A stretch of 64,000 bases of DNA from IMG/VR virus record IMGVR_UViG_3300022602_001838, positions 1-64,000 of that record. One strand, 5' to 3'. The notes under the pieces were generated by a model. The model was not told where the DNA came from and did no database searches. It saw only the letters and a program-made list of their open reading frames with translations. This DNA comes from a virus. Shown one piece after another: positions 12,529 through 60,716 of this stretch (positions are counted from its first letter, which is position 1; the number at the start of each line of letters is the position of its first letter). The position numbers and the translations under genes were made by a program.

Positions 12529-13202
12529 TGTTCTACTTTCTCTATATGGGATAAACATTCGTTGGCAAATAATGTTTGAACTGGTTCTTTATCAACATGA
12601 AAGTAAGGTCTAACTTTCATGTTATTATGATACCATAAGTTTGTTAATAGTTGCTGATCTTTATAGTCTACAATGAAGTTTTCCATAAAATTTGAATTTA
12701 TAAATGCAGCATAGTCTTGTTGATATTCAAAACCGCCTAGGGTAAAACAAAATGGTATGTTTTTAATTTTCAACATTTGTAAACAGTAGCAGATGAAAAA
12801 ATAATTTTTAACTCTCTCAAAGTTTTCCGAAAATACTTCTAGTATGCACGAATCTAATTTTAACAGTAAAGCAGGATCAACCATATTTCTGTATTGATTA
12901 GTTGCGTATCTAGATTTGATGTAGTCTGCCAACCCTTCTGTGGATAGCTGATTGGGCAATGCATCAAGGTTTTTGTCTAACTCATATCTACCAGTGCTGG
13001 TAAAAGACAGTATGACAAAATCAGGATTCAGTCTGATGCCTTGTGTTAATTGTTCTGCAATAAGTGCGTTACTAGATCCACCGTAGGCCAAATTACATAC
13101 CTCATAGTTCGGCGAACTGTTTAAAATTTTTTCACTCCAGTGTAGTCCTGAGTAGTCTGGATCTGTTATGGAAAAACTGTCTCCGCATAATAGTATCTTC
13201 AT
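12525..13202 (-). CDS. SGNH-like hydrolase (copy 3)
   Basis: Starts MKILLCGDSFSITD, with the GDS nucleophile block, then AYGGSSNALI and SFTSTGRYELD, matching the pattern of the proteins at 2428 and 3277. No clear C-terminal catalytic DxxH pair is visible. It overlaps thymidylate synthase upstream and the epimerase downstream by ATGA junctions, so it is in the same operon. The coding sequence contains an unusual 11-bp perfect inverted repeat (12594-12604 and 12613-12623). Confidence 0.55.
   Translation of the reverse strand: MKILLCGDSFSITDPDYSGLHWSEKILNSSPNYEVCNLAYGGSSNALIAEQLTQGIRLNPDFVILSFTSTGRYELDKNLDALPNQLSTEGLADYIKSRYATNQYRNMVDPALLLKLDSCILEVFSENFERVKNYFFICYCLQMLKIKNIPFCFTLGGFEYQQDYAAFINSNFMENFIVDYKDQQLLTNLWYHNNMKVRPYFHVDKEPVQTLFANECLSHIEKVEQ
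12594..12623. repeat. Intragenic 11-bp perfect inverted repeat
   Basis: AACATGAAAGT (12594-12604) is followed after 8 bases by its exact reverse complement (12613-12623). On the minus-strand mRNA it would form a strong hairpin inside the SGNH-like coding region. There is no T-run, so it is not an ordinary terminator. It could be chance, an RNase processing site or a translational pause. Confidence 0.5.
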
Positions 13203-14245
13203 ACTGCCATTGGTGCCCGGATTGCGTCGTGACTGGTATAGTTTACCAGTTTGATATCTGACATTGTGAACTTGGTAATGTCAGTGATATCGGTATTAAG
13301 TTGTAGTTGCGGGGCAGGTAGTGGTTCACGTTTCAATTGTTCCTTAACTTGCTCTACATGGTTGAGGTATATGTGTGCGTCGCCGAGAACGTGAACAAAC
13401 TCACCAACCCCCAAATGGCACACTTGAGCTATAAGATGCGTCAGCAACGAATAACTCGCAACGTTAAAGGGTACCCCCAAAAACATGTCGCAACTACGCT
13501 GGTACATCTGGCAACTTAATTTTCTAGTTGGCAGACCTAATTCTTTTAAAATTTCTGCTGTCTTTTTCTGACCTTCAAATCTAGGATCTAAGAACATTTT
13601 ATGCACAGCATCAGTGTTACGATAATTCATATAAACACGATCAAGTTCTTGATCGGTCATATCACTGACATAGAACTGTGCAAAGCAATGGCAAGGGGGA
13701 AGAGCCATCATACTCAATTCCCCGGGATTCCATGCTGTCAAAATATGACGACGACTATCAGGATCGTTCTTGATGCCGTCAATTAATTCTCGAAGTTGAT
13801 CTGTTTCTTTGAAGTGTACACTGCCTTTGCGATTATACTGTGTACCAAAATCATCACGGAATGTTTCTGCTTTATGTACAACAGGAGTACGCCAGTGGCG
13901 CCATTGCACGCCATATACTCTGCCCAAGTCGCCCTCAAATCGGGCTTTGGGTCGCCAGTAGGGTGCTGTGGCATTGGCAGTCCAGATAGTTGTCTTGCTA
14001 GACTCGGCGCTACCATATAAAATCTCTCGCAGCCGCTTTTCATCTCCTGAACCTTCAAGCAGCCACAGCAACTCTGATACTACACTACGCCAGGCTAGCT
14101 TCTTAGTCGTAACCGCCGGAAAGGAGTCTGCAAGATTATATCTCTGTTGCATACCAAACAGACTAATAGTTCCAGTGCCCGTTCGATCTTGTTTAGTGGT
14201 TCCATTATCAAGAACCTGTTGTAGTGCGCCTAAATATTGATTCAT
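13199..14245 (-). CDS. thyA: Thymidylate synthase (ThyA type)
   Basis: Makes dTMP from dUMP with methylene-tetrahydrofolate. Seen motifs: DRTGTGT near the N-terminus, ALPPCHCFAQF with the nucleophile Cys, QRSCDMFLGVPFNVASY and EFVHVLGDAHIYLNH. The Asn in GVPFN fits dUMP specificity, whereas dCMP hydroxymethylases have Asp there. At 348 residues it is longer than the 264-residue E. coli enzyme because of insertions in the middle. Start at 14245 (MNQYLGAL) chosen by homology of the N-terminus; an upstream in-frame start would only add residues inside DHFR. It overlaps the DHFR gene by 38 bases. Confidence 0.95.
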   Translation of the reverse strand: MNQYLGALQQVLDNGTTKQDRTGTGTISLFGMQQRYNLADSFPAVTTKKLAWRSVVSELLWLLEGSGDEKRLREILYGSAESSKTTIWTANATAPYWRPKARFEGDLGRVYGVQWRHWRTPVVHKAETFRDDFGTQYNRKGSVHFKETDQLRELIDGIKNDPDSRRHILTAWNPGELSMMALPPCHCFAQFYVSDMTDQELDRVYMNYRNTDAVHKMFLDPRFEGQKKTAEILKELGLPTRKLSCQMYQRSCDMFLGVPFNVASYSLLTHLIAQVCHLGVGEFVHVLGDAHIYLNHVEQVKEQLKREPLPAPQLQLNTDITDITKFTMSDIKLVNYTSHDAIRAPMAV

Positions 14246-46066: not shown

Positions 46067-48727
46067 TCAGTCCCAGCTGAATAGATTGTCGAATGTTGAT
46101 TTAGTATCAGTGTGAGCAAGAATATCCCACTCTAGTACGCCCAACAAGTTTTCTACTTTCTGGTCAACAATGGTTGATTGCATAGTCTCTTGGTCGAATG
46201 GCAACTGTTTGAACCAATCGGGAATATTTGCCTGATCGATTGGATAGCCCACTGATGTATAGTCCAAAGGATTATCTTTGAGTTTACATACAATTGTTTT
46301 CATACCGTCAACAATCTTCATTGAATAATTGTCAGCATACATTCTGCGTAGAGTATTCCAATTCATAGCAGCACGAACGTGTCCAGGCATATTTGCTTTG
46401 CCCAGTCGTTGTTCATCTGCTGTGTATTTTGTCAGATTGTTCACACGCTTGGGTGTGCCCTTCTCCCACGCTGGCAGATCGTTGAAGTCTAGTTTGAATT
46501 TACGAATCTTTTCATAGATGTGTTCTTTATCGCTGCCAGTCAATACATCCAACAAGATTGCGCTCAAGAAATCCTGAACTAGTTTTGGCGTATCTGATCG
46601 TTTCAAGTCCAAGCCCATAGCCTTGACTTTGCCTGGCTTGCCATCAACATCTAGTCGTTTGCCCTCAAGATCAAAAATCAGTACAGCATACCGCTTCTTC
46701 TTGATGAACAAGCCCTTTTCAGCAATCAGTTCACGACCACCCTTGATGATAGCACCCATTTCACGTGGACAATGACAAGCACGTTCCATGAACGGTGGAA
46801 AACTTTCATTCACGCTGTCTGCGATTGTGTCATAGAGTGCGATACAAACGTCCTTGTTCCATTCCATCTTGCCAGCACGAATATCTTTTTCAAAGATTGG
46901 GTATGCACTGAAATAAACTGAGTCAGTATCACCATAGATGATTGATTTGCCCACGTGATCGTATTCACCAGTCAGACATTCATTAACGTGTGCATCCATA
47001 TGACGAGCAATGCTACGACCAGTAAGAGTAGTTGATTGACCAATGCGTTTGTCAAAGAATCTACAGCCAGCGTTCAAAATCGCACCGTACAAACTGTTCA
47101 AGTTAATCTTCTTAACAAGCTGACGTTTGTCCCAGTACGCCTTGTCCGCATCTGTCTCGGCTTCTTTCTTCTTGGCCTGCATTTCTTTACGTTCTGCATA
47201 CCAACGTTTCAACAAGCCGGGAATGATACCTTCAACGTCATATCTAAAGATAGTACCGTTTGCACTCAGAGTCCAGGGCTGATTGCTGTCAAAGATTAGA
47301 TGCCAGACTTCTGCTGCTGTGTGCGTAGTACTGCCACCCTCTTCCCAATCAATTGTGATTTCTGTGCCCTGTTCCATATTCATCACAGCGTTATACTCAA
47401 GACAGGCAAACAAACCTTCCCACGAGTCAGCGAAACTACTGCCAGCAGCCTGTTTCTGCGACAAGTGATGATCGGTCATTGTTTGTCTGAATTGCCCAAC
47501 GATGGTTTCGGGTCCCATGTTGAGTGCTCGAATAGTCGAGGGATAGAGTGAGTTAATGTCGATTGCCCCGATGTAGTCGTGCATACCTCTTTTGGGCGTA
47601 GCAACATAGGCACCTGCGGCTTGCGTTGATTCAGAGTCGTCATACTTCTTTCTATTTGGAACGATCATACCACGTCCGTGAGCCTCGTTGATGATGGCCT
47701 GCTCTGTAACTGCGACTGCACCCATAGTAGTCGCCAACAACACGGTATTATCGTGAGCAATTTCGTTGGCCAGGTCGATGAAACGTAGTTTCTTGTCTAG
47801 CTTTGCCAACAACATGGTATCTTGTCTGTTATAGTCGATGAACTTGTAGAAGTCAGTGTTGTACAACTGATCCAATGTGCCTTCGTAGGCAACTTTACGT
47901 TCATCAAGTTCGTATTCGCCAATGGCGTCCAAACTATAACTGTGTCGTTCTTCGTAGGTATACTTGCGATAGAGTTGCATATAGTCCATATGCACACGAC
48001 CAATTAAATCGTATGTAATGTTCTTTGCACCAAATCGCTCAAACTCACGCTGTTTGGGAAACTGATTCCACAAACACATTCTGCGTGTATCATCTTTGCT
48101 AAGAATGCGAATGATACGCCCAACAGTATAGGGTACGTCGAAGCCTTCGCTGTTCCAGCCACTCATAATATCTGCGTCTTCGATCAGGTCAAGGAATGTA
48201 TTGAGCATATCCTCTTCTCTGTCAAACAGATAGCAGTTTTCAAATCTGTTGCAGATTTCTTCTGCCGATTCCCAGCTATAACTCTTTGGAGGCAAGGCCA
48301 ATGTTACCATCTTGTCGCACCAATCAAGGTACACTGAGATAGCAGTTATAGCGTTAAATGGGTCTTCTGGGGGAGCATAGCCTTTCTCAGGGTGGAAATC
48401 CACCTCAATGTCGAAAAATGCTGTTTGTAGTTTAGGTGAATCGATTCCAAGATAGTTATTTGAGAGGCATCTAAACACGGGGTTAAAGTCACTCTCCCAC
48501 AATCTCTTGTTATCTTGAATCTTGAGTTCTTTGTGAAACTCTTTGCTATTGCGAGTGCTGAATCTACTGACAGGAGTCCCATAAATTGTGGTAAATTTAC
48601 CTTTGGGATCGTCATAATAGAATGTATATTCAGCTGGGTATTCTCGGTATTCTCTGACGCCGTTCACTCGTTCTACGATGTGAATACGGTCTTTTTGCCT
48701 GTCGTACAGGGCATCAACGTAACTCAT
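46067..48727 (-). CDS. DNA polymerase, family B (T4 gp43-like)
   Basis: 886 residues, close to T4 gp43 (898). Exonuclease motifs FFDIEVDF (exo I), GWNSEGFDVPY (exo II) and YNRQDTMLL (exo III) come first, then the polymerase motifs DINSLYPSTIRAL (A), KKINLNSLYGAIL (B) and YGDTDSVYFS (C). All catalytic acidic residues are present. It replicates the phage genome with the clamp encoded downstream. The start has a GGAGAG site. A CATAAATA box lies 73 bases upstream. Confidence 0.96.
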   Translation of the reverse strand: MSYVDALYDRQKDRIHIVERVNGVREYREYPAEYTFYYDDPKGKFTTIYGTPVSRFSTRNSKEFHKELKIQDNKRLWESDFNPVFRCLSNNYLGIDSPKLQTAFFDIEVDFHPEKGYAPPEDPFNAITAISVYLDWCDKMVTLALPPKSYSWESAEEICNRFENCYLFDREEDMLNTFLDLIEDADIMSGWNSEGFDVPYTVGRIIRILSKDDTRRMCLWNQFPKQREFERFGAKNITYDLIGRVHMDYMQLYRKYTYEERHSYSLDAIGEYELDERKVAYEGTLDQLYNTDFYKFIDYNRQDTMLLAKLDKKLRFIDLANEIAHDNTVLLATTMGAVAVTEQAIINEAHGRGMIVPNRKKYDDSESTQAAGAYVATPKRGMHDYIGAIDINSLYPSTIRALNMGPETIVGQFRQTMTDHHLSQKQAAGSSFADSWEGLFACLEYNAVMNMEQGTEITIDWEEGGSTTHTAAEVWHLIFDSNQPWTLSANGTIFRYDVEGIIPGLLKRWYAERKEMQAKKKEAETDADKAYWDKRQLVKKINLNSLYGAILNAGCRFFDKRIGQSTTLTGRSIARHMDAHVNECLTGEYDHVGKSIIYGDTDSVYFSAYPIFEKDIRAGKMEWNKDVCIALYDTIADSVNESFPPFMERACHCPREMGAIIKGGRELIAEKGLFIKKKRYAVLIFDLEGKRLDVDGKPGKVKAMGLDLKRSDTPKLVQDFLSAILLDVLTGSDKEHIYEKIRKFKLDFNDLPAWEKGTPKRVNNLTKYTADEQRLGKANMPGHVRAAMNWNTLRRMYADNYSMKIVDGMKTIVCKLKDNPLDYTSVGYPIDQANIPDWFKQLPFDQETMQSTIVDQKVENLLGVLEWDILAHTDTKSTFDNLFSWD

Positions 48728-50743: not shown

Positions 50744-51282
50744 TAAGAATATTTAGCGCGGAATGTAGCGTATAGGCTATATCTACTGGAATCTTTGACT
50801 GGATTAAGCATACCGTGTGGTAATCGTCTGTTGCAAATAGTTATGTAACCTGAATTTGGTACGAAAGCACAAGTATGTCTGCCTTTAGTAGTATACCAAG
50901 TAGTGCCAATATATGGGTCTAGACTTTGAATATAGACCTGAAAATGTGCATATACAACATTATCATCTTCGTGGAATGGAATCATATAACCAGGATCGTC
51001 ACGCCAGACTCTGACCTGATTGCATTGTATGTTTTGATTGTCTAGTAGTTCAATGATACCAGACATATCAACTGAGGTCAATTCTTCTAAGATGCCATCA
51101 TTGACCCAAGTCAATTCTTGTCTTAAATTACTTGCTGTACTTTGTACAAATGCTTCTTGGTCTAGCCCAAGCACAGTTTGTTTGATGTATTCAAAATCAG
51201 CAGAGTCAAAAAATTGACCAACACTCCATAGCCCATCGTCCAAAGGTACTACGTCTGATAGATTTAACTTGAGTTTTTTCAT
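50743..51282 (-). CDS. 2-oxoglutarate/Fe(II)-dependent oxygenase-like protein
   Basis: The sequence has VRVWRDDPGYMIPFHEDD (HxD iron ligands), VYAHFQVYIQSL, TTWYTTKGRHTCAF and RRLPHGMLNPVKDSSRYSL, with the distal His and the Arg that binds 2-oxoglutarate. Length 179 fits. Such phage enzymes hydroxylate proteins or nucleic acids. It starts at the last base of the deaminase/peptidase stop. Confidence 0.75.
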   Translation of the reverse strand: MKKLKLNLSDVVPLDDGLWSVGQFFDSADFEYIKQTVLGLDQEAFVQSTASNLRQELTWVNDGILEELTSVDMSGIIELLDNQNIQCNQVRVWRDDPGYMIPFHEDDNVVYAHFQVYIQSLDPYIGTTWYTTKGRHTCAFVPNSGYITICNRRLPHGMLNPVKDSSRYSLYATFRAKYS

Positions 51283-52241
51283 TAGAATAAGTCTGGGTTT
51301 TGGTCAGCAAAGTCACGCATCAACACACCCGCTTGTGCGTTGGCTTCGTTCTCGATCTCACTGCCAGTATCACCGTCGCCTGGTTGAATTCTGTCTTCTT
51401 CACGTTGTTTGTGATGTGTGAGTTCGTGACCCAATGTTCGCAGCATATCCATGATATGACGATCTCGGTATGCTACTTGTACGGTATTTGTATTTGGATC
51501 AAATAGACCAAATGTTGGATGTTCTGTAGAACCAATCTCTGCTACAAGTTTAATCTTTGGTAGTCGTTTAATACCCAAAGATTTAACGCAGTGTTTGACA
51601 AAGTTGTTGCCAACTCGATGTAGGTCTGGCTCGGCAGATTCTTTTAAGTGTTCTTTTTGGAATGTGTCAGCAAAGGCCTTACACATTTTTTCAATATCTG
51701 GATTGTTTGTGAAGCGAATATCAAAGTCGTTGTGCTCAACTTCTTGATGTTCTGGATCACGGTATCCGCAATAGACCACTTTAACAGGAGTAGTTTCAAT
51801 CAGTTCGTTGCAGCTAATGCCCTGTCTGTCTGGCATATCATCTACACAAGGACTCAGTGTAGTAACAATCACAGCATCTTCGGGTATCTCGCCATACATA
51901 CTCTTGAACTTGTCTAGTGCTCTGCGTTCAGCATGTGCCCACTTACCTTCAAAATGGCTAGTGGCGCAGACCTTTTTACCGTCGCCGATTACCGCAGCAG
52001 CAACAAGTCCACTACCACTGTCTTTGCGTTTGTTTTTGATGATCAGATCGCAGAGTTCTACTAGAACATCATCATAATCAGTTTCTTGTGATTCTGCTAG
52101 ATCAAATGCTTTGAGATTCTTTTGTATCTGTCCTGGACGAACATCCTTGGTCAGACTCATACTATAACGAGGGTCTTTAGCTTGTGATTTCGTAGCAATC
52201 ACGCCAGTACCACCAGCCTCAAACAACTCGTAGATATTCAT
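51282..52241 (-). CDS. Deaminase-metallopeptidase fusion with capsid-targeting-like peptide
   Basis: The N-terminus MNIYELFEAGG has an LFE prohead-protease-type site (residues 6-8). Residues 55-190 form a cytidine-deaminase-like domain: HAE (103-105), LSPCVDD (PC at 131-132) and C144. After an LKES site (199-202) a second domain has LGHELTHHKQ (HELTH at 272-276) and EIENEANAQAG, whose Glu can be the third zinc ligand. Thus two zinc enzymes are joined. It may be cut into separate proteins in the capsid and injected. Confidence 0.65.
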   Translation of the reverse strand: MNIYELFEAGGTGVIATKSQAKDPRYSMSLTKDVRPGQIQKNLKAFDLAESQETDYDDVLVELCDLIIKNKRKDSGSGLVAAAVIGDGKKVCATSHFEGKWAHAERRALDKFKSMYGEIPEDAVIVTTLSPCVDDMPDRQGISCNELIETTPVKVVYCGYRDPEHQEVEHNDFDIRFTNNPDIEKMCKAFADTFQKEHLKESAEPDLHRVGNNFVKHCVKSLGIKRLPKIKLVAEIGSTEHPTFGLFDPNTNTVQVAYRDRHIMDMLRTLGHELTHHKQREEDRIQPGDGDTGSEIENEANAQAGVLMRDFADQNPDLF

Positions 52242-52681
52242 TTCAAGACGCTTCTTAACATCCAGCTGTGTTTGCGATGTGCGTCCATACGCTCTGCTAA
52301 GAAGTTGCTGAATCCGTGTTCACCTTCTGCCTCAGCAACATCATAGACCATCTTTAACAAGATGCACATTTTGTCGCTGTCTTCTAGCAACATAGTGACC
52401 ATAGCACCATCTGGGATGACTTCGGTTTGGTCTTCAATACGAGTAAGAACACTCAACTTGCTCAAACTACCTGGAGCGTAGCAGTCTAAGGCGCGCAACT
52501 TTTCAGCAAAGTCATCTATGATGCCATAGACTTCTTCGTAGATGTTTTTAAATAGTTCGTGGAACTGTTGAAAGTGAACACCTTCGACATTCCAGTGAAA
52601 CTCGTGTGCCTTAAGATAGAAAGCAAACTCGCTGGCGAATGCGATTCTGGCTGCTTGCTGTAGTTGTGATAGTTCTTCCAT
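52238..52681 (-). CDS. Dps/ferritin-like protein
   Basis: FYLKAHEFHWNVEGVHFQQFHE, then NIYEEVYGIIDDFAEKLRAL, carries the His, Asp and Glu ferroxidase residues of Dps (DNA-binding protein from starved cells). At 147 residues it is slightly shorter than E. coli Dps. It could protect phage DNA or sequester iron. It follows a TATAAATA box 5 bases before its ATG and overlaps the deaminase gene by ATGA. No targeting peptide is visible. Confidence 0.82.
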   Translation of the reverse strand: MEELSQLQQAARIAFASEFAFYLKAHEFHWNVEGVHFQQFHELFKNIYEEVYGIIDDFAEKLRALDCYAPGSLSKLSVLTRIEDQTEVIPDGAMVTMLLEDSDKMCILLKMVYDVAEAEGEHGFSNFLAERMDAHRKHSWMLRSVLK

Positions 52682-52685
52682 ACTG

Positions 52686-52693
52686 TATTTATA
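52686..52693 (-). promoter_or_regulatory. Exact late promoter box before the Dps-like gene
   Basis: TATAAATA overlaps the stop codon of the giant amidoligase gene. The box ends 5 bases before the A of the Dps ATG and no Shine-Dalgarno is present. Confidence 0.5.
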
Positions 52694-55600
52694 TAATGTC
52701 GTATCCAGCTCGTTTCATAGCATAAAGACGACTTTCCATGATTTCATCTTCGTCAAATGGTAACTCTGTTTGCAACTCTTCTGGATCGTGCAACAACTCT
52801 TGTGTATGTCCCGGAGTTACCTTCATTGGGGCATTAGCTGGATTTTTCAATCCTCTGAGCTGACTTATCAAAGCATCTTTTTGGATTGTTAGTCTGGCTT
52901 TTTGACTTGAATCATCCCCGTAACTTCCAGGTATTTTATCCAACTGTTTTTGAATCAATTTGATCTGTTGCTGTAACTGTGTGATTGAGTCGTGATCATT
53001 GCTCTTAGCTGGAGCTGCTACTGGTGCTGGGGTAGGATGAACTTGTTGTTTTAGTTCATCTTTAGCAACTGGTTTGTCCAACTCTTTTCTAATCACTTCA
53101 CGCTCTTTGCTGTCTTGGTCTTTTTTCTGTTGAACTGGCACATCTGCGGCACGGACTTTGCTTGGCAAAGTTTGTGTTTTGACTTGATCAACTCGTTGAC
53201 TCAATCTGCGTAACAAATCTTGTTGCTGTTTGTTAACAGTTTCAACACCCTGTAACTCTCGTTCAGTACTGTCTAGTTCTGAGCTTAATGGATCTAGTTG
53301 ACGCAAAATTTTGTTGACCTGTGCGTAGTTGTCTCTGGTCTGTTTAGCAACCCCGCTCAAATATCCAAACACTGCGTCTGTATCGCTTTGTGCTTCTGGG
53401 TTAGTACGGCGAGCAACTCTGATTAGTTCTTTACCAGCTGGGCTAGAGATAGCTTCGTTGGTCTTTTGCTTTTGTGGTTGTTGACGTTGTTGTTTGCGTT
53501 TTTCTTGTTGAGCAACACGTTTGACCATGTCTTGATACTCATCACCATAATCAGCTTCTTGGTCTTTTTTCTTGCTTTCACCCAAGCTGCCCATACCACT
53601 ACCACCCACTGGGCTAGTTGTGTCTGTGACTGGAGCAATGCCGCCTCCGCCAAAGCCGCCACCGTATTGATCCTCACGAGTGTAGTTTCCAATTGGCTGC
53701 AGGATAAAATCCTCTGCACTTAACTTTTGTCTTGTTGGATCAGCTTCTGCTTTATGAACATATGTGTCGATGACTCGTTTAGCCATGATGTGATTAACTG
53801 CCTTAGCAACTATGATTTTTTTATTACTACGGTGTGGATTATAAATCACATTGACTTTTTGATCTGAGTGGAATATTCTAGACTCATCCACTTCGCCTCC
53901 TGGACTTGCACTACCCACTTGTTGTCCATCAGAGTTCATAATAAATATGGCCTCATTGCGAGCATTGGCAAGTTCTTGAGCCGCTTGAATAGCATCGCCT
54001 CCTCCCCAAAATTGACCAAGCATTGTGCCTTGCGCATCTGTTAGATTGAATGAATCGTCGTCGGTGTCATCGTTGTATTCATTTTCCTGTGGTCTTGCAC
54101 CGCCTACACGACCTGCATCGTCATTTACAAACACATGGATGTTGCGTTGATTTGCATATTGCTGTGCGGCATCTAGTGCATCTTCTTCTGAACCATTTAT
54201 GATATCAATAAGACCACCTTCGCTGTTTGTTAAACTATATTGACCCTGCGCAAGTCTTTGTTCTTGGTCTGCTGTGCGCTGACTTGTAAACTTGGCTGCA
54301 TCGGCTTTTGGAGCTGCCTTAGTGCCTGGTAATGGAAGTGGTTTACTTGTATCACCACGCAGTGCTTTAACAGCATCAACAAATCCTGGATCTGTTTGTT
54401 TAATGGTCTGCATATAGCCAATACCAACAGCATTCTTATCACGGTTCTCGTTATACATACCAAATGCACTACCACGTTCAGTACCATGAGCGCTGAATTT
54501 ATCAGCAAACTGTTCCAAGGTACTTCGTTTTGTTGGGAACATTTCGAGGCGTAAGAAGTTTTCTGGTGCTGCCGAAGCAATATTTTCTTTTGTTGCTGTA
54601 GCAAATCCACTATCTGCTAACAATCGTTCGCGGGCACTTGGATCTGGTACAACTTTGACAGTTATTCTACCAGTCCCGTAGTTAGATTTTGCCCAATATT
54701 TGGCAGCTTCTATTGCTTGTTCTGGTGTGCTACCACGAGTCGTAACAACATCAACAAAACGAACTGGAATACCACGAGCCGCAATAGAACGAATATCAGT
54801 TAATGCCAATTTATCAGAGTTTGAAACTTCAGGAGCTTTCATCATCTTGACCAACTTACCAACATATTCATCACGATAGGCAGTTGGATCACTTGCGATA
54901 ATCATGGCACGAACAAAACGGCCCACTGTGTTGGCAATATCTGCTGCCTTGCTCAAATAGTCACCACCTGCGTGTCTGAATGAAACATACTTGCCGTTAA
55001 AGTTGACTGTGGCAAAGTGATCGTCGCTGATGCGTTTGACCATCTCTTTCATTTCTTTTTCTGCGTCTTTGAATGTGGTAGAACCAACAGTTGGCAAACT
55101 ACCGTTGCCCTTTAGATTATTGATAACACTGCGAGCATAGCTGTTGTTTTCACGACCAAACTGTTTCAACACATAGTTGTCACCAATGAATGTTGCCAAC
55201 TTTAGCACATCAAGTTTGTCCGGAATACTGACATTGATGTGTAGGCCAGTAGAGTTGTTGGTATAGAAGTTTAACTGTTGTGCTTTCTGATACCATGTGC
55301 GTAGTGCTGTCATTGCAGCATCTGCCTTCAGTGGGGGACTAACAACCTCTGCTGCATAATCGCCCTGATTTGGGCGCAAGCTACCGTCTGGTTCAATATA
55401 CCAACGGTCAAGTTTCTTTGTTGCTTGGTGATACCCTCGGAAGATTTCCATGTTGTCACCAAACACATCTTTAAGATTTGCCTTCAAAAACTCAGCGCCG
55501 TCCATGTAATCGCCACTGTGGCTACTGCGTCTGCGTGGTGCTAAACTTGCTGGTTCAGCGGCCCCGGGAGTAACATAGTACCAAAGTTTTTCTTTTAGAG

Positions 55601-56693
55601 TGTCTGTGTTGTTATTAACGCGACCTTTGAATGCCCACTTGGTCTTTAACAAGTCTTTGAGATTGTCTGTGCCCATTGTTTCTGTGCAAAAATCAGCAAA
55701 GTGTTGTTTAAATTTATTAAGAAGTTCTGGAGTTTGCTCTTGTCTATAACTCCAGCCTGGAATATATTCACTGTAAAATTCATCTCTGCGACCATCTTCG
55801 GCGTTAGCAACTTGACTGCAACGACCGTCCACTGGACCAGTAGTAACACGATAGCAATGAAGCATTGCATCTTTGATTTGTGTGATTACTTCGGGGGTCA
55901 ACGCACTTTTTGCAACACGGCCACTGAAATCAATATCAGTATAATCTTTGAGAACTCTGATGACAAAATCACGAGCGTTGACATCCACGGGATTACCCTC
56001 TGCGTCTCTGCCATATCTGCGTTCAGCGTCACCGTTCATAAAATAAGCCGTCATATTTTTGAACTCACGGTCTTTTAACAGTTTTTTTAATTTTTCTAAG
56101 ATTGGGCTGCCTCTTTCGTCATTTGCTATAAGGTCCCTGACTTTTGTTTCTGCCCAATTTCTATAGTGCGCCCAAACGCTTTTGTACCCACCAGATGCAA
56201 CCTGAACGCTGCTTTTATACTTGAACAAGTCATCAAAGACTTTTTGAAATTTATCGCTACCATGTGCGGTACGCAGAATACCATCTATCAAATCGTTTGT
56301 GGTCTTGCCCTCAATCCATGTAATACTGTTTGGATCATAGCCCGCTGGCACTTCTTGTGGGCCCTCTTTCCATGCTTTTACAGTTCGTACTGGAATCAGT
56401 GTTTCAAACTCAAAACCAACCAACACACCTTTTTCAGCACCCTGACTAATAGCCTGAGCAAACGCTGAGGGGTTCATGGCTACTTCGTCAATATTGTCTT
56501 CTGTGACAGCCTCTTCTTCCATACTGCCGATTGGACTAACATCATTGTCTGTGCCCCAAGTAGCACTGACGCCATTGCCATCAGCCAATGCACCATCGAT
56601 GCCGTTATTCTCTTGAACACCCATCATTAGACCATTAAAGTCTTCGGCTAGTGTGTTCTTCTTGGTGCCTTCAAATAATGTGTATAAGTTCAT
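52689..56693 (-). CDS. Giant amidoligase-domain protein (1334 aa) with capsid-targeting-like peptide
   Basis: Starts MNLYTLFEGTKK, with LFE (6-8) and LAE (15-17-like) protease-type sites. Residues about 89-530 match the amidoligase fold: GFEFE (93-97), YIEPDGSL (432-439), AEVVSPPL (448-455) and TGLHINV (482-488). Amidoligases join amines to carboxylates with ATP. From 819 to 929 two related units occur (SLTNSEGG, FNLTDAQG). The remaining part is Gln/Lys-rich coiled coil and ends near a LPFDEDEIMESRL segment. It may be a large packaged enzyme. Confidence 0.65.
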   Translation of the reverse strand: MNLYTLFEGTKKNTLAEDFNGLMMGVQENNGIDGALADGNGVSATWGTDNDVSPIGSMEEEAVTEDNIDEVAMNPSAFAQAISQGAEKGVLVGFEFETLIPVRTVKAWKEGPQEVPAGYDPNSITWIEGKTTNDLIDGILRTAHGSDKFQKVFDDLFKYKSSVQVASGGYKSVWAHYRNWAETKVRDLIANDERGSPILEKLKKLLKDREFKNMTAYFMNGDAERRYGRDAEGNPVDVNARDFVIRVLKDYTDIDFSGRVAKSALTPEVITQIKDAMLHCYRVTTGPVDGRCSQVANAEDGRRDEFYSEYIPGWSYRQEQTPELLNKFKQHFADFCTETMGTDNLKDLLKTKWAFKGRVNNNTDTLKEKLWYYVTPGAAEPASLAPRRRSSHSGDYMDGAEFLKANLKDVFGDNMEIFRGYHQATKKLDRWYIEPDGSLRPNQGDYAAEVVSPPLKADAAMTALRTWYQKAQQLNFYTNNSTGLHINVSIPDKLDVLKLATFIGDNYVLKQFGRENNSYARSVINNLKGNGSLPTVGSTTFKDAEKEMKEMVKRISDDHFATVNFNGKYVSFRHAGGDYLSKAADIANTVGRFVRAMIIASDPTAYRDEYVGKLVKMMKAPEVSNSDKLALTDIRSIAARGIPVRFVDVVTTRGSTPEQAIEAAKYWAKSNYGTGRITVKVVPDPSARERLLADSGFATATKENIASAAPENFLRLEMFPTKRSTLEQFADKFSAHGTERGSAFGMYNENRDKNAVGIGYMQTIKQTDPGFVDAVKALRGDTSKPLPLPGTKAAPKADAAKFTSQRTADQEQRLAQGQYSLTNSEGGLIDIINGSEEDALDAAQQYANQRNIHVFVNDDAGRVGGARPQENEYNDDTDDDSFNLTDAQGTMLGQFWGGGDAIQAAQELANARNEAIFIMNSDGQQVGSASPGGEVDESRIFHSDQKVNVIYNPHRSNKKIIVAKAVNHIMAKRVIDTYVHKAEADPTRQKLSAEDFILQPIGNYTREDQYGGGFGGGGIAPVTDTTSPVGGSGMGSLGESKKKDQEADYGDEYQDMVKRVAQQEKRKQQRQQPQKQKTNEAISSPAGKELIRVARRTNPEAQSDTDAVFGYLSGVAKQTRDNYAQVNKILRQLDPLSSELDSTERELQGVETVNKQQQDLLRRLSQRVDQVKTQTLPSKVRAADVPVQQKKDQDSKEREVIRKELDKPVAKDELKQQVHPTPAPVAAPAKSNDHDSITQLQQQIKLIQKQLDKIPGSYGDDSSQKARLTIQKDALISQLRGLKNPANAPMKVTPGHTQELLHDPEELQTELPFDEDEIMESRLYAMKRAGYDII

Positions 56694-57778
56694 TTCGTTT
56701 GTCCTGGAACAGGGTTCTGCTGTGCAGTATTTGTGCTTTGTTGTGGTTGTTGACCCGCTGGCTGATTGGTACCAGTTTGTTGCTGTGCCTGTTGAACTTT
56801 AAGTTCTTTTTGCTTGTCTACTGTATCTGCTTTGGTAATCAACTGTTTCATTTGTGCAGCAGTCTGTGGGTTTTGCAAGGCCTTGCTTGTAGCAACTGCC
56901 AATGGTTCCATTTGCTTTAACTCTTGTGCATTTAAATCAGTGTTTGGCTTGTCATCAAGTTTAGTCATAGTATCACTGAACTTGACTTTATTTAATGGCT
57001 GCGCTGCACCCTGTTGATTTAATGCTGTAGATAACTGATTGGTATTCTTTTGAATCTGTTGCTGATCCATTTTCTGTTGTTGAGCTTTTGGATCGGGATT
57101 TTGATTTGTACTACCTTGTGGGGCTTGACTAGCAGCACCATAGCCACCAGTGCCACCATACTCGTTCAAGTCTTCTTTATCTTGCCACCAGTATTTTTGA
57201 CCTGCCTGCGTAGCTTTGGTTGGACGAGCTTTTGCTTTTGGACCACGATAGCCACGTTCCCATGCTGCTGCACCTGCTGCTGCTGATTTGCCCTGTTTAA
57301 CAAAGTGAGCAATCACTGCCTGCTTGCTGTCTAGTTCTTCTGCTATGAGTTGATTTATAAATGACTCGTTGATTTCGACTGGCATCATCTTACAAACTTC
57401 TTTTTTGGTCTCTATCTTAGCACTGGGCACACGTTGTTTCAACATCATCAAGTCTTGTTCTGCTTGTCCAAGATTGTTATATTTTGACGCTGGCTTATCA
57501 TTTACATAAAGAACAAACTCGTCTGCACTTTCTTTAAACTCTTGGAACTCACGCATTAATTGATGTGCGTTGGTACGAGGATTCTCTACTAGTGCTTTTT
57601 CTAGGTCTTTGATAATGCTTTCTTCTGCACTGCCACCAACCATTTTGTTCTTGGCCTGGCTTGCTTTGTCAGTGCCTTTCCAGTATCCAGGAAACTTTGG
57701 ACCCGTTGGCTTCTTAGTATCGCTTTTCATACTTTCGTCAATGCGGGCTAACTTGCCCAACAGGTCTCGCATACTCAT
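56690..57778 (-). CDS. Gln-rich internal or head protein, 362 aa
   Basis: Starts MSMRDLLGKLARIDES at an ATGA overlap. After a charged N-terminal part there is a LIAEELD site (146-150) and a helical AVIAHFVKQGKSAAAGAAAW segment. From about 210 it is low complexity: Gly/Tyr, then Gln/Pro/Asn-rich, ending in NPVPGQTK. Composition suggests a disordered packaged or scaffold-type protein. Function unknown. Confidence 0.6.
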   Translation of the reverse strand: MSMRDLLGKLARIDESMKSDTKKPTGPKFPGYWKGTDKASQAKNKMVGGSAEESIIKDLEKALVENPRTNAHQLMREFQEFKESADEFVLYVNDKPASKYNNLGQAEQDLMMLKQRVPSAKIETKKEVCKMMPVEINESFINQLIAEELDSKQAVIAHFVKQGKSAAAGAAAWERGYRGPKAKARPTKATQAGQKYWWQDKEDLNEYGGTGGYGAASQAPQGSTNQNPDPKAQQQKMDQQQIQKNTNQLSTALNQQGAAQPLNKVKFSDTMTKLDDKPNTDLNAQELKQMEPLAVATSKALQNPQTAAQMKQLITKADTVDKQKELKVQQAQQQTGTNQPAGQQPQQSTNTAQQNPVPGQTK

Positions 57779-58965
57779 CTTTTAATCATCCCTGATTTCT
57801 TTGGCTTTTTGGCTTTGAATGGACTGTTCTTTTGGCTATAGTTACCACCAAACAATGTACCAACATTGCTGCCTTTACCAACGCTCATAGATGTAGCAAT
57901 ACCACCAGCACCGCCACCTGCACTGGCAAACTCCATCAATTTGCTTTCAAACATCTCAGCATAGTCTGGGCTTTCCTTCATACCAGGATAGCGCTGTTTG
58001 CCGGGCTGTCCTTCGTTGCCATCATCACGAATTGGATGTGCTTCGTCACTGTAGTTGCCTCTTGGCATTTTTTGCGCCACACTTTGCTTTTGTAGATAAG
58101 CATAGTTGGTTACCAGGTCGCCTGGAAAGTCTTCGTTATACGTAAATAACATACGAGCACGACGGTCACCTAGTTCATCACGAGCAATAGTATATGCCGC
58201 TCCTAATACTTCTTCAGCAGAACCTGACGAAACTAAATTGGGATTTTCATTAAAGACTTGTTGTGCCAACTGTTCTGCATAATTAGAGCCTTCCGCCACA
58301 CCTTGATCGCCTTTGATAGAAAAAGGTTTCATTCCCATTTTCTGTCTAAGCACATTGATTTCTTGTATGGTTCTGAACTCACCATCTTGACATTTCAAAC
58401 GCATAGGTTCATTCTCGTCCCACGATGTGAATTTTCCGCGTTTGTTTATTGCCGGGGTAGCACTAGCACGGCCATCCAATCCTTCCGTCATGCCTTGTTC
58501 AAACATACCAGATTGGCCACGATGCATTTCTTTTTCGCTGATCAAATACTGCATAACGCTGGTCAACATACCTTTGGCAGCGCCCATCTTTTCTGCTACC
58601 CATTCAGGAATATCATCATCGGCACTGATATTTTTGTTTAAGTACACTGCCACGCGGTGTATGGTGTGTAGGCTGTTTTTAAATGTAGAACCATCATGCT
58701 CGGGTTCGCCGATGAATTCTTCGCCCACGCCTTGCTCACCAAGCCCATGTACTCTCAACGACTTCTCGTAATGAGATTCTTCATCGTTTGCTGGCTCATC
58801 GTCAAAATCATCAAAATCCCCATCAAATTCTTCTTCATCGTGATTGCCGTGCAAATCGTTGTAATAATCTTCATCACTGTCATAGTTATGAGGATTGATT
58901 TCATTGACGGTCTTGATAGATTCTGTCATCAATTTATTAATGTTAAAAAGATCGTTGGTTTTCAT
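57775..58965 (-). CDS. Acidic protein with QGVAEG-type sites, 396 aa
   Basis: Starts MKTNDLFNINKLMTES; LMTE (12-15) is a possible protease site. Residues 29-66 are an acidic stretch. Three QG-x-x-E sites occur: QGVGEE (78-83), QGMTEG (157-162) and QGVAEG (221-226). They separate short segments, including GLDGRASATPAINKRGKF and a helix-rich AEQLAQQVFNENPNL part. The C-terminus is Gly/Ser/Lys-rich. It is probably cut by the prohead protease. Confidence 0.6.
   Translation of the reverse strand: MKTNDLFNINKLMTESIKTVNEINPHNYDSDEDYYNDLHGNHDEEEFDGDFDDFDDEPANDEESHYEKSLRVHGLGEQGVGEEFIGEPEHDGSTFKNSLHTIHRVAVYLNKNISADDDIPEWVAEKMGAAKGMLTSVMQYLISEKEMHRGQSGMFEQGMTEGLDGRASATPAINKRGKFTSWDENEPMRLKCQDGEFRTIQEINVLRQKMGMKPFSIKGDQGVAEGSNYAEQLAQQVFNENPNLVSSGSAEEVLGAAYTIARDELGDRRARMLFTYNEDFPGDLVTNYAYLQKQSVAQKMPRGNYSDEAHPIRDDGNEGQPGKQRYPGMKESPDYAEMFESKLMEFASAGGGAGGIATSMSVGKGSNVGTLFGGNYSQKNSPFKAKKPKKSGMIKR
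58289..58305 (-). repeat. Linker-coding 17-bp repeat, copy 1
   Basis: CCTTCCGCCACACCTTG, the complement of the QGVAEG codons. Identical at 59776-59792 and one mismatch at 59524-59540. It could be a recombination site for module exchange. Confidence 0.6.
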
Positions 58966-58994: not shown

Positions 58995-59265
58995 CGAAAA
59001 ACAATCCGCCGCCTCTGACATTGACTTCCCCGTTTATAGTCATATTTTGTGTGTAAAATACTGGGTCAGAGTTACATTCACGCACATACAATCTGTGCGC
59101 CCCTGGTTCAATATTAATTTCGATGTGTTCTCTAATGAATACATCGTATGCAGCCCAAGTCCAACTGCGTTCTGTGAGCATTTCATCATCAACATAGATG
59201 CGGTAGCTGGGCTGGCCTTCGCTACGACTGCAATAAACATCCACAGTTAAACTTACTGCTGCCAT
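58990..59265 (-). CDS. Beta-sandwich binding-type module, 91 aa
   Basis: A small beta-rich protein with YRIYVDDEMLTERSW, HIEINIEPGAHRLYVRE and GGGLFFA. It resembles carbohydrate-binding modules of CBM-like domains found in phages. The 158-residue gene at 60743 shares RPQYRISFNEAVLSE with its YRIYVDDEMLTER, so the two are related. It probably decorates the virion. Confidence 0.55.
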   Translation of the reverse strand: MAAVSLTVDVYCSRSEGQPSYRIYVDDEMLTERSWTWAAYDVFIREHIEINIEPGAHRLYVRECNSDPVFYTQNMTINGEVNVRGGGLFFA

Positions 59266-60716
59266 TATTTTGCCTTCTTCATACCAGCAATCAAGGCAAG
59301 CTCTTGATCAATACTTTGGACCACGCTTTCTGTCAGACCTTGCTTATGAATGAATCCACGACTATTTTGTGGAACATTTGTGGTGCAAAACTTGCCGCAT
59401 ACTTTGCCAGTTTTGTCAGTAGCGTGATGAGTCCACTCTAGATCATTTTTTGGTTTAATAACATTCAACCCTTGCGATTTTGCGTCATCTGTCCAAGATT
59501 TCAAATCTCGGTGCAACACTCTGCCTTCTGCCACACCTTGCTTGATGCTTTTAAGAATAGATTTAGCCTGGGTGCTAGAATCATATGAGCCAATTTGAGT
59601 GTTGACTCTTCCCATTGCTTGGAGAATTTTTCCATCGGCAGCATAATGAGTGACCTTGCCACCTTTTACTCTGAACAATATGCCGCGAAAACTATAAATG
59701 CCATCCGGTTTGCTTACTGACTTATCAATAATTAAATTTACATTATCGTTATCTAACACCCCGTACTGGATTTTGCCTTCCGCCACACCTTGCTCCCAAA
59801 CTTTAGAACCAGCACCTTTATTCTTGTCCCAGAAATGTGAGCCGGCATCTGTTTGGTGTTGACTACGATTGATTCTAAAGCCTTTTGCTTTGAGCATATC
59901 ATACACTGTTTGAGCGATGCCTTGCCCTCTGTATTCAGGTGTTACAGACATATCCTGTGCTTCAAGATCATGGCCAAGCATATCAAATGTAAAGCCTGCC
60001 ACTTGTTTTCCGCCCAATGTAACATCAACATAAAGTTCTTCACCTGCTGTTTCTATGTTGAATTTCATCTTGGGTTTGACGAATTTGTCCAATAAGCCTT
60101 CCGCCAAGCCGCCGCCCAAATACTTGTCTAGTATTTGTCTTGCCACTGCTGGATTGCGAGGATACAGGTCTGCGATAATGGCATTCTTTTGTGCATCATC
60201 TGCTTGTGGCCACATTGTGCGTATTTGTGTAGCACTGGTTACTCCACTGGGGCCTGCATCAAACTGTACAGTTGGCAAGTAGACCATGTAACCATGTTGA
60301 CTCATTGGAGCAAGATTGCCCTTGTGATATGGTTGTAGATAACTGGGAGTACCGTCTTTTTTGACACCACCTGCCCCTGGTGGTTCATTGCGATCTTTTT
60401 CGCTACGTGCAAAGATCAACACAGTATTATCAGGATCGTATTGACCAGTAACTTCTTTTGCTACAAAAGGGCTTTTTACCAGTTGGAAGTTCTTGGGGTT
60501 CACACCAGCGATCTGAGCAAGTTTTTGCTTTTCGGCAAATGGAAAAGGACGATCTTTACGGTCGTCCGTTGCTACATAAACGATGTGTGCTCCTGGGAAT
60601 GCTTGCTCTGCTGCTCGGTACAAGCTCAAGTGTCCGGGGTGAAATGGGTGAAAACCCCCTGGGATTAAGACCAGGGTTTGTTTTTGCTGTGCTTCAAAAA
60701 GATCAAGAATGAACAT
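59265..60716 (-). CDS. Five-module polyprotein: nucleotidyltransferase, GNAT and small domains
   Basis: Starts MFILDLFEAQQ with an LFE site (6-8). Module 1 (9-206): nucleotidyltransferase with LIPGGFHPFHPGH and SATQIRTM motifs. GLAEG (203-207) ends it. Module 2 (208-313): GNAT acetyltransferase, with VTPEYRGQGIAQTVY. QGVAEG (309-314) follows. Module 3 (315-397) is beta-rich, ending QGVAEG (393-398). Module 4 (399-463) has KVCGKFC and ends QGLTES (459-464). A short tail follows. The protein is probably cleaved in the prohead, releasing separate proteins. Confidence 0.8.
   Translation of the reverse strand: MFILDLFEAQQKQTLVLIPGGFHPFHPGHLSLYRAAEQAFPGAHIVYVATDDRKDRPFPFAEKQKLAQIAGVNPKNFQLVKSPFVAKEVTGQYDPDNTVLIFARSEKDRNEPPGAGGVKKDGTPSYLQPYHKGNLAPMSQHGYMVYLPTVQFDAGPSGVTSATQIRTMWPQADDAQKNAIIADLYPRNPAVARQILDKYLGGGLAEGLLDKFVKPKMKFNIETAGEELYVDVTLGGKQVAGFTFDMLGHDLEAQDMSVTPEYRGQGIAQTVYDMLKAKGFRINRSQHQTDAGSHFWDKNKGAGSKVWEQGVAEGKIQYGVLDNDNVNLIIDKSVSKPDGIYSFRGILFRVKGGKVTHYAADGKILQAMGRVNTQIGSYDSSTQAKSILKSIKQGVAEGRVLHRDLKSWTDDAKSQGLNVIKPKNDLEWTHHATDKTGKVCGKFCTTNVPQNSRGFIHKQGLTESVVQSIDQELALIAGMKKAK
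59524..59540 (-). repeat. Linker-coding 17-bp repeat, copy 2
   Basis: One mismatch from the copies at 58289 and 59776; codes for QGVAEG at residues 393-398 of the five-module protein. Confidence 0.55.
59776..59792 (-). repeat. Linker-coding 17-bp repeat, copy 3
   Basis: Identical to 58289-58305; codes for QGVAEG at residues 309-314 of the five-module protein. Confidence 0.6.

Follow-up and report, generated by a model that had tools for sequence, protein, structure and literature searches.

What kind of protein is encoded by an ORF that strings unrelated domains together through a short recurring peptide, and does this peptide mark a place of cleavage, a place of gene exchange, or both? The question arises from a 483-aa ORF in the window, that is, the whole 64 kb stretch of DNA analysed here, which is part of an 81.5-kb IMG/VR virus record and carries a T4-type DNA polymerase at 46067-48727. 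The first-pass annotation had described five modules joined by GLAEG, QGVAEG (twice) and QGLTES after an N-terminal LFE site. All four joints were recovered, at residues 202, 309, 393 and 459, with the leader site LFEA at residue 6. Four of the modules are real, and what had been counted as a fifth amounts to a 20-aa tail. The ORF is divided as follows, with module limits taken from homologues and a slash at each predicted cut.

59265..60716, minus strand: ORF of the 483-aa modular polyprotein
60693..60716, minus strand: N-terminal leader MFILDLFE with site LFE/A, likely a capsid-targeting sequence (leader type enriched among linker ORFs; low pLDDT)
60099..60692, minus strand: module 1, nucleotidyltransferase (NTase), residues 9-206 up to the joint Glu (Pfam CTP_transf_like; NadD/CoaD folds)
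60096..60113, minus strand: joint GGLAEG (L-A-E/G), residue 202, with known homologous joints
59778..60098, minus strand: module 2, GNAT acetyltransferase-like, residues 207-313 (Pfam; near-identical copy in L268)
59775..59792, minus strand: joint QGVAEG, residue 309, exact 18-nt word (word search)
59526..59777, minus strand: module 3, no assigned function, residues 314-397, bounded by joints, no family match
59523..59540, minus strand: joint QGVAEG, residue 393, exact 18-nt word, where identity to L259 starts
59328..59525, minus strand: module 4, no assigned function, residues 398-463, with 98% DNA identity to an L259 polyprotein
59325..59342, minus strand: joint QGLTES (L-T-E/S), residue 459 (motif search)
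59265..59327, minus strand: C-terminal tail, 20 aa and stop codon (similar tail, IDQELAML..K, at the end of L262)

Pfam analysis of the 483-aa protein placed CTP_transf_like at residues 18-99, above the cut-off, and GNAT at residues 225-280, below it; homologues back the GNAT assignment. In all, Pfam gave one cytidylyltransferase-like and two GNAT models, and PHROGs nucleotidyltransferase-type families only. AlphaFold2, run with a 26-row alignment, gave confident NTase and GNAT folds, the former grouped by Foldseek with NadD/CoaD-type enzymes. Confidence was low at the leader, at the first joint and for everything after the second joint; modules 3 and 4 were poorly modelled, and the alignment there was almost empty. 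The pattern [LIVM]-x-E-[GSA] matched this protein five times only, at the five joints (leader site included).

The neighbourhood contains a second protein of this kind, at 57775, which bears the same type of linker as had been noted, and possibly others.

57775..58965, minus strand: second polyprotein, 396 aa, three modules (ORF, joints)
58480..58497, minus strand: its joint QGMTEG (motif search)
58288..58305, minus strand: its joint QGVAEG, exact 18-nt word (word search)
58291..58482, minus strand: its 64-aa module (gain/loss comparison with L259 and L034/L257)
51282..52241, minus strand: deaminase with a C-terminal HExxH metallopeptidase-like module, leader MNIYELFE/A, and LKE/S between both (ORF, Pfam, motif)
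52689..56693, minus strand: amidoligase protein, 1334 aa, leader MNLYTLFE/G (ORF, Pfam, motif)

The deaminase protein is a possible third member of the polyprotein set, and its HExxH module could be a peptidase. A C-terminal HExxH metallopeptidase-like module is also present in a different linker-bearing protein of L261, and the two possibly represent one exchanged module family. The amidoligase protein may be a further packaged protein. Adjoining the cluster at 52238-52681 is a Dps/ferritin-like protein (Pfam Ferritin; PHROG DNA-binding protein). Beyond the window, three adjacent ORFs at L244:2647-5572 (record ~66546-69471) resembled an acyl-CoA/AMP-dependent synthetase, a short-chain dehydrogenase and a beta-keto-acid cleavage enzyme when their translations were judged by eye, possibly a small metabolic operon. 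Two more ORFs, at L244:10075-11016 and 13006-13986, resembled by eye periplasmic solute-binding proteins (TRAP/DctP-like and tricarboxylate-transporter/Bug-like), which is unusual for a phage and a possible hint of a betaproteobacterial host.

The commonest joint proved to be an 18-nt DNA word, CAAGGTGTGGCNGAAGGC, which occurs five times in the window with up to three mismatches, compared with 0.08 expected in shuffles. Exact copies number at least 158 in at least 120 IMG/VR stretches, with up to four per stretch; among the exact copies listed, QGVAEG was the best reading in 157 of 158, with a wobble G in 151. The codons of the joint are near-fixed, with GCG at ~93% and GTG at 98% against backgrounds of 10% and 25% respectively in the same ORFs. 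The loci for these counts were chosen by exact match to the word, but 20 QGVAEG copies not matching it exactly still had 16 GCG and 17 GTG. A synonymous control word built from commoner codons gave 31 singleton matches in unrelated proteins, and among 17 large records the word was present in 16 and a reversed control pattern in none. Shuffles, frame bias, codon bias and the synonymous control together rule out a linker that arose by chance or codon bias. Bacterial genomes were also ruled out as carriers, since their 120 matches to the word pattern came one per stretch with no common frame or wobble. No INPHARED record carried the word (best matches 17–22 nt, E ~4). Separation by 2A-type ribosome skipping was set aside because the linker lacks the usual 2A motif.

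Breakpoints were analysed in 131 linker ORFs with 352 recognised joints, the records being metagenomic fragments. Interior ends of DNA alignments of at least 80% identity lay at a joint in 45% of cases per side; random positions did so in 6.4%. When only alignments of at least 92% identity were counted, 30 of 52 interior ends coincided with a joint in both sequences. The 64-aa module of the 396-aa neighbour is 98.1% identical in L259, joint to joint, and exactly this module is missing from L034/L257, with flanks 97–99.6% identical. The GNAT module of the window recurs, again joint to joint and at 93.7% DNA identity, inside an unrelated 906-aa HD-domain protein of L268, and the 98% DNA identity of module 4 to the L259 polyprotein runs from the joint up to the end of the L259 contig. 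The NTase exists as a stand-alone ORF of 200–201 aa behind a leader of this kind in L263, L264 and L266, and L262 retains the NTase and a similar tail with middle modules other than those of the window. Near-identical modules in unrelated proteins, with identity breaking at the joints, bear out the earlier idea that the linker lets modules be swapped. The aligned sequences show that the 18-nt word has been a place of module gain and loss and of exchange between genes and phages, and the view of these proteins as shuffled chains of modules, with a joint kept at the level of DNA, is well supported. What the first-pass annotation had missed is the conservation of the linker in its DNA and its coincidence with recombination breakpoints in many uncultured phages. 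Assembly chimeras are probably not the source of the mosaic chains, because 18 nt is shorter than the usual assembly k-mers. Contig ends fell at joints three times compared with 0.52 expected, which is weak as a sign of population heterogeneity.

Chains range from two to about 12 modules, with a median of ~77 aa for internal modules, and the longest have 11 recognised joints (L266 and L031). The L266 chain (L266:6938-10603; 1222 aa), with several modules below 70 aa, is among the most modular. In L063, L021 and L081 a joint follows almost directly after the N-terminal leader, for example MRATEFIIEGVAEG, MRINEILVEQGVAEG and MKTLRDYINLIESNEQGVAEA. In L052 a joint-bounded module of 167 nt is common to two ORFs of one contig at 99.4% identity, which suggests a recent duplication inside one genome.

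DNA conservation beyond what the codons need, together with breakpoints that fall at the word, would also be expected if the word were mainly a DNA element, such as a selfish repeat or the site of a dedicated recombinase, forced to stay in frame within coding DNA. We consider this improbable, since the peptide itself is constrained. The first and second positions of the core codons had ~3.4 changes per site compared with 10 at the third, QGVAEG was the best frame for all but one of the 158 copies listed, and the peptide motif persists at diverged joints that have lost the word. Copies of QGVAEG with one substitution numbered 133, compared with 0.95 expected in shuffles; the residues changed were Q (51), P1′ (52), A (12), V (10), G (5) and E (3), and nine of the ten V changes were to M, L or I. 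At homologous joints without the DNA word the P1 Glu and a hydrophobic P3 were retained ([VLIM]-x-E). GNAT modules end there in QGVAE, QGVSE, QGLAE, QGVEE or AEMGE, and NTase modules in GLAE, AVAE, ELAE, AVDE, DIKE, DVKE, PVAE or PVDE. Among NTase C-terminal stretches 11 of 14 contained [LIVM]-x-E against a background of 0.145 per 12-aa window (p ~1.5e-7, an optimistic value because the stretches were hand-picked and some homologues are related).

This motif is reminiscent of the T4 prohead protease gp21, which cuts after L/I-x-E (PMC9026906), as the first-pass annotation had stated. Strict agreement with that rule (L/I at P3, E at P1) was seen at the leader, GGLAEG and QGLTES, and most other joints have V at P3 with a near-invariant Glu. 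The V of QGVAEG had been called a deviation; among these joints, however, V predominates at P3, and V, L, I or M is kept in diverged joints. QGVAEG-type sites between domains, whose search in related phages had been proposed, were found. Shuffling does not need cleavage, and the joints could instead be uncut flexible hinges of intact multidomain effectors, packaged or cytoplasmic and shuffled at short repeats; polyvalent proteins packaged unprocessed do exist, for example N4 vRNAP (PMC5512222). A hinge, however, has no need of a near-invariant Glu with a hydrophobic residue two positions before it, and the leaders terminate in the same motif as the joints. We regard uncut hinges as unlikely, although they are the strongest of the competing explanations.

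The leaders point in turn to the phage head. With the first ATG as start, and with a motif chosen after leaders had been seen, [LI]-x-E was found within residues 5-20 of 53 of the 79 linker ORFs, compared with 197 of 836 other ORFs of the same loci, and these leaders resemble T4 capsid-targeting sequences. In T4, packaging of IPIII needs its first ten residues (PMC9026906). In the six head cassettes read, the leader of the major capsid protein ends in L-x-E/[NS]A near the protease gene, the cut position being taken from that of T4 gp23 as an analogue. Cyanophage proteins annotated ‘structural protein’ contain modules that resemble those of L031. Taken together, these sequence features suggest that the chains may be packaged and cleaved. 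Counted against this are the following observations: a gp21-type protease (PF03420) was found in six of the 18 linker records searched, mostly partial records, and the 81.5-kb fragment to which the window belongs, possibly an incomplete one, has none; P3 is usually V and not the L/I of T4; module interiors show no depletion of [LIVM]-x-E-[GSA] (349 matches compared with 211 expected by shuffling, with control ORFs also in excess); and the leader motif is absent from a third of linker ORFs (26 of 79). The last point, together with the missing leader of homologues that begin directly at the NTase, would fit products that are cut by another protease and act in the infected cell without packaging. 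Leader enrichment, the likeness to T4 capsid-targeting sequences and a virion precedent in cyanophage S-SM1 (PMC3037559) speak against this possibility, to which we give the least weight of all.

The 483-aa ORF belongs to a large class of modular polyproteins of uncultured, partly jumbo, phages of the T4 superfamily. We think it probable that these chains are packaged in the head and processed by the prohead protease, and that recombination at the joints, which would double as cleavage sites, diversifies them in frame. The leader (M....LFE/A) would act as a capsid-targeting sequence that takes the chain into the prohead core. A gp21-type protease would then cut behind the leader Glu and behind that of every [VLIM]-x-E/[GSA] joint, so that small individual proteins remain in the head to be ejected along with the DNA. 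Exchange at the word, the site of module gain and loss, preserves the reading frame, since the word itself is always in one frame. If the word also codes for the cleavage site, any module that is exchanged would bring its own cut site.

Known systems share parts of this design. The internal proteins and Alt of T4, which have a capsid-targeting sequence cut by gp21, are similar in their short N-terminal leader ending in hydrophobic-x-E, in a gp21-family protease found in some records of the lineage and in enzymes as likely cargo, and leader-only single-domain proteins occur here too. However, the T4 cargoes are single proteins that lose end propeptides, whereas the present chains have many modules and internal sites, bear V at most P3 positions and share a DNA joint. 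Polyvalent proteins (Iyer et al. 2017, PMC5512222) likewise carry many enzyme domains per chain in shuffled architectures, and were likened by those authors to viral polyproteins; their release was ascribed to embedded peptidase domains, which are frequent and not universal, and the word ‘linker’ is nowhere in that text. The window protein combines two unrelated effector domains, NTase and GNAT, and families among the matches listed for 50 related chains include GNAT, HD, ParB_N, deaminase, amidoligase and LysM. No embedded peptidase was detected in the 483-aa protein by Pfam or PHROGs (modules 3 and 4 match nothing) or among the 20 families listed for the 50 chains. In phiKZ, SPN3US and 201phi2-1 a prohead protease likewise cleaves head proteins after x-x-E, but the motifs differ (A-x-E or S/A/G-x-E) and long propeptides are removed by multiple cuts; the parts of PMC9026906 and PMC10052503 consulted describe no common joint. 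The S-SM1 cytidylyltransferase SSM1_190 (T4-GC190) was reported as newly detected in purified virions (PMC3037559), and has a leader MKKFSAFLNE/A, an NTase domain and then QGIPE/G. Its sequence does not match that of the window protein significantly (no such match was obtained by blastp of seven window proteins against twelve S-SM1 proteins), and the 18-nt word is absent from INPHARED. It is therefore a precedent and not a demonstrated homologue, and it is the nearest experimental one.

Our literature search, which covered jumbo-phage papers in part, yielded no paper containing the string QGVAEG and no description of a cleavable chain with exchange joints. We put it at slightly better than even that a single 18-nt word serves as both in-frame recombination joint and prohead-protease site, allowing combinatorial building and delivery of exchangeable sets of injected proteins, which phages would share by way of the joint. 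If true, many injected phage proteins would be made as one cleavable chain whose joints double as exchange points. The joint would offer a simple means of locating where modules begin and end, and of picking out candidate injected effectors, among many phage proteins that lack annotation. The question of what T4-type heads carry could then be put to a direct test by way of peptides whose first residue follows the joint Glu.
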